From: a virus
Strand: one strand, 5' to 3'
Length of the DNA stretch: 37,716 nt
IMG/VR virus record: IMGVR_UViG_3300027749_000252
Location: 1-37,716 of that record
Both the position numbers and the translations under genes were made by a program. Numbering within the stretch: position 1 is the first letter of the stretch; every line of letters begins with the position of its first letter. Shown piece by piece: positions 30,052-31,314 of this stretch. Below the pieces are notes generated by a model. The model was not told the DNA's origin. It ran no database searches and saw only the letters and a list, made by a program, of their open reading frames with translations.

Positions 30052-30485
30052 TGGATTTTTCATTTAACATTGATTTGAGTAGCGTAAAATCAGCAGGACC
30101 GCGCACGATCGCGGCAGGGTCTTATACCGTGATTGCGGATGGAGCCGAGATCAAAGCAACGAAAGCCGGGACCGGGGAATATATCTCCGTCAAGTTCAAG
30201 ATCCTGGGCGGCGAGTGTAACGGCCTGACTCTTTGGCATTCATTTAATATTAAGAATCCGAGCGTGAAAGCGGTCGAGATCGGCCTTCAGCAGTTGAAGC
30301 AGTTCGTTCAATGCTCAGGCGCGCCAGAGAAGCTGACTAGCCCGATTGATCTTGTGGGCTACAAAGCGACTGCAGTCGTGAAAATTCAGAGTGACGCGAC
30401 CTACGGAGACAAGTCCGTGATCGCTTATTTCAAGCCAGTATCGGCCCCGACTGATGGTGATAAAGGATCGGACATTCCGTTCTGA
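30051..30485 (+). CDS. DUF669 single-strand DNA-binding-type protein
   Basis: 144 residues. DUF669 pattern: 'FSFNIDLSSVKSAG', 'AAGSYTVIADGAEIKATKAG', 'YISVKFKILGGECNGLTLWH', 'NPSVKAVEIGLQQLKQFVQC'. The chain ends 'GDKGSDIPF', like the acidic tail of bacterial SSB that binds partner proteins. DUF669 genes regularly pair with Sak4 ATPases. It would coat ssDNA during replication and recombination. It is followed by a strong terminator. Confidence 0.82.
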   Translation: MDFSFNIDLSSVKSAGPRTIAAGSYTVIADGAEIKATKAGTGEYISVKFKILGGECNGLTLWHSFNIKNPSVKAVEIGLQQLKQFVQCSGAPEKLTSPIDLVGYKATAVVKIQSDATYGDKSVIAYFKPVSAPTDGDKGSDIPF

Positions 30486-30496
30486 TTTGAAAGGAT

Positions 30497-30528
30497 AGCC
30501 CGGGGGAGAAATCTCCCGGGCTTTTTTT
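30497..30528 (+). terminator. Intrinsic terminator after the SSB-like gene
   Basis: AGCCCGGG (30497-30504) pairs with CCCGGGCT (30515-30522), extended by AG/CT inside, and is followed by seven T (30522-30528). It stands directly before the methyltransferase start, so that gene either has lower expression or relies on antitermination. Confidence 0.85.
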
Positions 30529-30540
30529 ATGGGAGAAAAA

Positions 30541-31314
30541 ATGAATGGGCTGGATTTATTTTCAGGAATTGGTGGAATCGGAATTGCCCTTGAACCATGG
30601 GTCAGGACAGTCGCATATTGTGAGCGCGACCGATACGCACAAGGCGTTTTGTTGTCACGAATGCGGTCAGGTGACATTGATACCGCTCCAATTTGGGATG
30701 ATGTCACAACACTCCGAGGCGATATGTTGCCAAGAATTGACATTATCTTCGGTGGATTCCCATGCCAGGACATCAGCGTTGCCGGAGCTGGAAAAGGTCT
30801 GGACGGAGAGCGAAGCGGTCTTTTCTTCGAAATCGTCCGACTCATCCGAGAATGCAACCCCAGATTTGTTTTCCTCGAAAACGTCCCTGCCATCAGAACC
30901 CGTGGAGGGGAAACAGTGGTTAAAGAATTGGCCCAGGTGGGGTATGACTGTCGATGGACTACTCTTTCAGCCTCCGCAGTTGGAGCCAATCACAAGCGCG
31001 AAAGATGGTTTTTATTGGCCCACGCCAACAGTGTGCGGAAACTATCAGAACAAGGGAAACATGATTGGACTAGCGACCGCAGTAAAAATGTGGCCGACAC
31101 CATGCGCAAGGGATTGGAAAGACACCGGAAAAAGTCCGTCAGAAATGCGCAGGAATTCGGTTACGCTTGCAACAATAGCTGGTGGGCAGTTGAACCCCGA
31201 ATTTGTCGAGTGGCTGATGGGGTACAGAATAGGGCACACCGAATTAGATGCCTTGGTAATTCAGTGGTTCCGCTCCAAGTCAGAGAAGCGTTCAAAAAGT
31301 TGATCGGATTATGA
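30541..31314 (+). CDS. DNA (cytosine-5) methyltransferase
   Basis: 257 residues from the ATG at 30541 (GGGAG five bases upstream; an ATG at 30529 lies in the terminator tail). All main motifs are present: I 'LDLFSGIGG' (4-12), IV 'GGFPCQDIS' with catalytic Cys75, VI 'FLENV' (111-115), VIII 'HKRERWFLLA' (151-160), IX-X 'RVADGVQNRAHRIRCLGN' then 'SVVPLQ'. The target recognition region (about 162-215) is short. It adds methyl groups to cytosine in phage DNA, probably to evade restriction. No cognate nuclease is nearby. The whole gene overlaps another long, family-like frame (30545-31303). The helicase gene starts within its stop (ATGA). Confidence 0.88.
   Translation: MNGLDLFSGIGGIGIALEPWVRTVAYCERDRYAQGVLLSRMRSGDIDTAPIWDDVTTLRGDMLPRIDIIFGGFPCQDISVAGAGKGLDGERSGLFFEIVRLIRECNPRFVFLENVPAIRTRGGETVVKELAQVGYDCRWTTLSASAVGANHKRERWFLLAHANSVRKLSEQGKHDWTSDRSKNVADTMRKGLERHRKKSVRNAQEFGYACNNSWWAVEPRICRVADGVQNRAHRIRCLGNSVVPLQVREAFKKLIGL
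30545..31303 (+). CDS. Overlapping gene in the +1 frame of the methyltransferase (WPTPT / VEWLMG family)
   Basis: 252 codons without a stop, nested in the methyltransferase gene. This frame is itself recognisable. It has 'SSVDSHARTSA' (residues about 68-78), 'NWPRWGMTVDGLLFQ', 'FYWPTPTVCGNY', 'MWPTPCARDWKDTGKSP' and 'GGQLNPEFVEWLMGYRIGHT'. These motifs mark a phage protein type often associated or fused with cytosine methyltransferases. Its ATG lies four bases after the methyltransferase ATG and could share the GGGAG site; internal ATGs at 30698 and 30701 are alternatives. N-terminal residues 1-50 look less protein-like. Function unknown. Confidence 0.6.
   Translation: MGWIYFQELVESELPLNHGSGQSHIVSATDTHKAFCCHECGQVTLIPLQFGMMSQHSEAICCQELTLSSVDSHARTSALPELEKVWTESEAVFSSKSSDSSENATPDLFSSKTSLPSEPVEGKQWLKNWPRWGMTVDGLLFQPPQLEPITSAKDGFYWPTPTVCGNYQNKGNMIGLATAVKMWPTPCARDWKDTGKSPSEMRRNSVTLATIAGGQLNPEFVEWLMGYRIGHTELDALVIQWFRSKSEKRSKS

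Follow-up and report, generated by a model that had tools for sequence, protein, structure and literature searches.

Around 770 bases of phage DNA encode two proteins in different reading frames within the window, the window being the whole stretch of 37,716 nucleotides analysed here (IMG/VR record IMGVR_UViG_3300027749_000252). The first, alpha, is a C5-cytosine methyltransferase chain of 257 amino acids with the large domain motifs I to VIII and X (30541–31314, plus strand; ATG at 30541, stop at 31312–31314). The second, beta, is a predicted recognition and motif IX subunit of 252 amino acids in the +1 frame with respect to alpha (30545–31303, plus strand; ATG at 30545, stop at 31301–31303). 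Both starts fall within ATGAATG (30541–30547, plus strand), the beta start being four bases on from that of alpha, and they have in common a Shine-Dalgarno-like GGGAG (30531–30535, plus strand) placed 5 nt upstream of the alpha ATG and 9 nt upstream of the beta ATG. Coordinates, the 252-codon open +1 frame, the closely spaced starts and the GGGAG are all as the original prediction described them. A further ATG at 30529, also in frame with alpha, comes where a T run ends and lacks a Shine-Dalgarno site.

A strong intrinsic-terminator-like hairpin (30497–30528; 11-pair stem, T-rich tail) lies a few bases before the GGGAG, and no promoter-like site was found between 30300 and alpha. The methyltransferase is either expressed by read-through past this hairpin or regulated by it. 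Nearby are genes for a Sak4-like annealing protein and an SSB-like protein, for a helicase with an ATG that overlaps the stop of alpha, and for a RecE-like exonuclease; since terminase, portal and tail-sheath genes are present in the window as well, the locus is the recombination module of a contractile-tailed phage. An antisense ORF of 224 codons (30315–30989, minus strand) overlaps alpha, beta and the SSB-like gene; it was rejected as a third gene, antisense frames averaging 3–7 stops in relatives, and is probably a by-product.

Relatives of the overlapping pair

Relatives were collected by searching viral contigs with beta and alpha and bacterial genomes with beta, and together with four phage records they make a set of 334 sequences, the window included. 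Wherever beta matched in these 334 loci, the match lay over an alpha gene and in its +1 register, and the sole locus lacking a beta match (L089) is cut off at its contig end. No stand-alone beta was seen in the 334 loci, nor did the matches found in 296 genomes of a single phylum include one. A search with the alpha profile, which kept the loci most like the window, found beta in 80 out of 80. The overlap spans phages and prophages of several bacterial phyla, and a plasmid search gave three matches, all weak. Canonical bacterial C5 enzymes have 4–29 stops in the +1 frame (14 in E. coli dcm), and so beta is a feature of one branch of the C5 family; in two trees of the catalytic domain the beta-bearing branch stands apart from the canonical enzymes with support of 0.82 and 0.64.

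In Stenotrophomonas phage SOVA965 what is annotated as 'DNA-cytosine methyltransferase' is the beta frame (L091, 1552–2052) and alpha is unannotated, while in Paenibacillus phage Leyra both overlapping frames are annotated as DNA-cytosine methyltransferase (L092, 822–1859 and 1006–1710). For the E. coli matches just one DNA cytosine methyltransferase is listed, with beta omitted.

Coding and selection in the beta frame

After synonymous shuffling of the codons of the window's alpha, 0.2% of the shuffled sequences have no stop in the +1 frame, the expected number being 5.1 stops. An open frame of this length is unlikely by chance, as originally argued, although the 6e-6 then given came from a uniform-base model and gives way to the 0.2% of this fairer null. 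Among loci selected through alpha, 89 of 90 are open from motif VI to motif X against 7.5 expected, and the frame is open in 258 of 258 loci against a mean probability of 0.010, most of these loci having been selected through beta. The pattern NPx[FW][VTI]EWLMG is found in 213 of the same 258 loci against 0.04 expected under the synonymous shuffle, in a set partly selected via that motif, and so the openness of the alpha-selected loci is the cleaner test. These counts make it hardly credible that the open frame, with its motifs, simply follows from the codon use and composition of alpha, even though high GC favours open frames (mean probability of openness 0.027 in the highest GC class), and such an origin is further contradicted by the de-overlapped loci described below, where the beta sequence persists with the alpha frame full of stops.

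Substitutions were compared in 58 independent pairs. At alpha third positions, which are beta second positions, the difference is 0.31, compared with 0.44 for neighbour genes. NN/NS comes to 0.58 in the +1 frame, 1.24 in the +2 frame and 0.8 in the neighbour genes used as controls. Over residues 158–212 (motifs VIII to IX) the amino acid identity of beta (0.60) exceeds that of alpha (0.48), and it is alpha position 1, equal to beta position 3, that varies most, the signature of a beta third position. Judged from these patterns beta is under purifying selection beyond the alpha frame's own.

The start codon of beta is also a selected feature. Where codon 2 of alpha is Asn and precedes a G, the AAT:AAC ratio is 106:6 as against 823:1287 elsewhere in alpha (106/112 and 823/2110; Fisher 2e-34), and AAT before G is what creates the beta ATG; control genes with a Shine-Dalgarno site have a ratio of 16:27 (16/43). 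The ATG at +4 is present in 128 of 259 loci, and in many others beta opens further downstream. Openness, motif, substitutions, conservation across motifs VIII–IX and start codon, five tests in all, agree and indicate from alignments that both overlapping frames are real and coding. The dual-coded pair of the original prediction is in this respect borne out, by the +1 register of the recovered loci and by the tests of selection, with both frames open in homologous loci and the beta frame under purifying selection.

Domain content and its division between frames

Alpha matches PF00145 (2.2e-42) and phrog_363 (6.8e-68), the former being restricted to profile positions 1–209. The catalytic motifs I, IV (PC), VI (ENV) and VIII are present together with the AdoMet fold, and PC and EN are invariant in the alignment. 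An AF2 model of alpha has block means of 88–98 across residues 1–160 and is confident also for the C-terminal helices of motif X, located by alignment as RCLGNSVVPLQV (31246–31281, plus strand). Residues 166–225 (31036–31215, plus strand), mostly of pLDDT below 50, make a disordered gap between motifs VIII and X, a low-confidence linker at the expected site of the target recognition domain. The best PDB match of alpha is to M.HhaI, in the large domain only (E 8.5e-17, 33% identity, 169 columns), and a separate profile match to HhaI ends at profile position 172, before the HhaI recognition domain; from the pLDDT and the end of the profile match, a folded target recognition domain and motif IX are absent from the alpha chain. 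What had been taken for a complete methyltransferase with motifs I–X does indeed have I, IV, VI, VIII and X, but falls short of completeness in its partial PF00145 match and in the disordered stretch from VIII to X. In the published layout of C5 enzymes the small domain consists of the variable region and motif IX, and the large domain of motifs I–VIII and part of X (PMC3404938, PMC5944983). Taking this layout with the disordered linker and the M.HhaI match, alpha is a large domain that lacks the small one, and on the models beta becomes the obvious candidate for the missing part.

Beta itself is less readily placed. Searched separately, as had been proposed for both translations, it finds a phage family, its best match being phrog_1008 (8.9e-22; matched by all 108 aligned beta proteins), and finds nothing in Pfam, NCBIfam or PDB profiles. 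The label of PHROG 1008, 'DNA methyltransferase', is that of an enzyme, whereas beta has no catalytic motifs. Modelled alone beta is poor (pLDDT 59.5, pTM 0.29), with no PDB fold match to this low-confidence model, and profile comparison of beta with canonical enzymes gave no significant match. By isoelectric point its N-terminal half is acidic (4.7) and its C-terminal half basic (9.4), and the alpha linker is basic (10.1).

The WPTP of beta is conserved in the alignment, and translation of the window gives two copies, WPTPT (31016–31030, plus strand), overlapping the end of alpha motif VIII (LLAHAN), and the WPTP of WPTPCARDWKD (31091–31102, plus strand). These WPTP or LPTP repeats of some 30–40 amino acids vary in number between relatives, from the two in the window to about six, and there are several in L395, in L396 (2885–3752) and in L423 (1409–2555). 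Further downstream beta has GGQLNPEFVEWLMGYRIGH (31184–31240, plus strand), which fits the NPx[FW][VTI]EWLMG pattern and is predicted to be the motif IX equivalent by position. A canonical motif IX matrix does not pick out LNPxFVEWLMG above shuffles and does not score the single-frame forms well either, so the motif IX label is a positional one, resting on agreement of position in the single-frame and de-overlapped forms. The N-terminal half of beta and the segment over alpha motifs VI–VIII have no counterpart in canonical small domains, and so beta may do more than fill a small domain role.

How the motifs are divided between the frames varies. In the main type, 288 of 302 distinct motif-scored loci, the +1 frame carries LNPxFVEWLMG and the alpha frame carries motif X, at a spacing of 59 nt in 277. 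In five loci (L237, L321, L423, L450 and L462) motif VIII is the last motif of alpha, whose frame has 4–26 stops before motif X, and beta alone has WPTP repeats, LNPxWVEWLMG and then EPxIPRVxxGIxNRVxRLKCLGNAVVPQ in tandem, a segment that elsewhere is encoded by alpha. Two peptides whose bases are shared in the main type thus follow one another in these de-overlapped loci, and neither is lost. The five tips are scattered on the tree and require five changes by parsimony, some of the placements being weakly supported. The original prediction could have failed on homologues with stops in the +1 frame and no stand-alone second protein; what is found is both frames open in the homologues, and the C-terminal half of the second protein free of overlap in these five loci.

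L360, L395 and L403 have motifs I–VIII, LPTP repeats, an LNPxF-like motif and motif X all in one frame, and against these single chains the beta profile gives matches of 2e-8, 9e-14 and 1e-11. They belong to an actinobacterial-type group nested inside the family with support of 0.93–0.95. Intermediate forms (L355, L398 and L399) have the repeats in the +1 frame and motifs IX and X in the alpha frame, and in L355, L360, L399 and L403 the LNPxF-type motif and, after it, motif X share a single frame. Five loci with a single frame switch that one indel could explain in each case (L060, L062, L276, L298 and L138) were left out as evidence. Also left uncounted was L447, an interrupted relative of L450 with a similar C-terminal end split into several frames (1466–2934), perhaps a decayed copy or the result of assembly errors. 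Lineages therefore divide the motifs differently between frames and keep the sum, a pattern that supports, at the level of alignments, a reading of the pair as a split enzyme.

Two other explanations accept that the beta frame is translated. A programmed frameshift from alpha could make an alpha-beta fusion, with beta never made alone; phages use programmed frameshifting elsewhere, and the existence of the single-frame forms demonstrates the viability of a fused order. It is nonetheless very improbable, because the ATG at +4 of alpha is under selection, because a fusion in the main type, where motif X stays in the alpha frame, would lack motif X, and because the part of beta that lies before any shift site is likewise under constraint (NN/NS 0.56–0.85 against 1.1–1.8 in the +2 frame). 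Alternatively both frames are genuinely coding, with beta as an independent protein, such as a regulator, an anti-restriction factor or a toxin-like protein, that happens to share DNA with a self-sufficient methyltransferase. The absence of a recognisable fold and the extended N-terminal part with no counterpart in C5 enzymes are what this has in its favour, but it seems quite improbable when beta is never found apart from alpha in the loci and genomes surveyed, when alpha has no folded recognition domain of its own, and when motifs move between frames with the sum kept, to the point that beta segments are part of the alpha chain in L360, L395 and L403. The original idea of a separate phage protein acting upon the methyltransferase gives way to one in which beta is, most probably, another subunit of that enzyme. 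The accompanying suggestion of a part in target recognition for the second protein is supported, as far as sequence comparison allows.

A probable split methyltransferase and its known counterparts

Overall we consider it probable (about 0.83) that the two frames encode two polypeptides of one C5-cytosine methyltransferase, alpha being catalytic and beta contributing recognition and motif IX, with a two-subunit enzyme like M.EcoHK31I as the simplest reading. Sequence comparisons support the coding nature of both frames, selection for the beta start, the lack of a folded recognition domain in alpha and a division of motifs that shifts between lineages. Ribosomes would load at one site and initiate either at the alpha ATG or at the beta ATG four bases downstream. 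Alpha would then form the large catalytic domain, motifs I–VIII and the motif X helix with a disordered linker between, and beta would supply in trans the parts that alpha is missing, a WPTP-containing target-recognition region and LNPxFVEWLMG as the motif IX equivalent. A physical association of the two chains would give a holoenzyme in need of both, which would methylate phage DNA at a sequence picked by beta, and methylation would presumably protect the phage DNA from host restriction. Counting against beta as the recognition subunit is the placing of the predicted recognition domain of M.EcoHK31I in its large subunit (PMC3404938). A bolder version seems to us rather unlikely. In it beta would be a target-recognition subunit of an undescribed kind, its WPTP/LPTP repeats would make up a modular array for reading DNA, with their number and content setting specificity, and the same-strand overlapping pair would be old and widespread, with motifs able to migrate between frames.

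Few long overlaps on one strand are known in which both products are under selection, and most of these have a narrow distribution. The present one comes with internal controls, in the five de-overlapped loci and three single-frame forms, and makes testable the classic question of how two domains of one enzyme end up in two frames. In practical terms databases label beta as a methyltransferase (PHROG 1008, SOVA965) or omit it (the E. coli matches), and a phage methyltransferase cloned as alpha only may appear inactive in tests because beta is missing.

The overlap is not new in kind, as total overlap of two C5 methyltransferase ORFs was already noted in the 5093-group phages of S. thermophilus, with the same cited for pneumococcal phage MM1 and for transposon Tn5252 (PMC5601072). 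Compared by description, these resemble the present pair in using the same DNA in different frames for two products labelled C5 methyltransferase, and in the relevant part of that source the overlap is an annotation curiosity, with no selection test, breadth or mechanism attached. Within the open-access literature searched, most subscription papers being beyond reach, no description turned up of the breadth, of the two-frame selection, of selection on the start codon or of de-overlapped and single-frame loci.

M.HhaI and the monomeric C5 methyltransferases share the catalytic domain fold of alpha, but alpha has no recognition domain and the canonical enzymes have stops in the +1 frame. Lee, Kam and Shaw are reported to have found in 1995 that the small polypeptide of M.EcoHK31I is encoded inside the gene of the large one in another reading frame, with both needed for methylation. 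Both M.EcoHK31I and M.AquI are two-polypeptide C5 methyltransferases (PMC3404938, PMC5944983). M.AquI (CYCGRG) is a split enzyme with a division similar to that in the five de-overlapped loci, whereas the window has motif X in the large subunit. In M.EcoHK31I (YGGCCR) the large polypeptide has motifs I–VIII and X and the small one motif IX (PMC3404938), and by this published description it is like the main type here (288 of 302 loci) in having two polypeptides, the large one with motifs I–VIII and X, but its predicted recognition domain is in the large subunit, and it belongs to a restriction-modification system where the present pair belongs to a phage.
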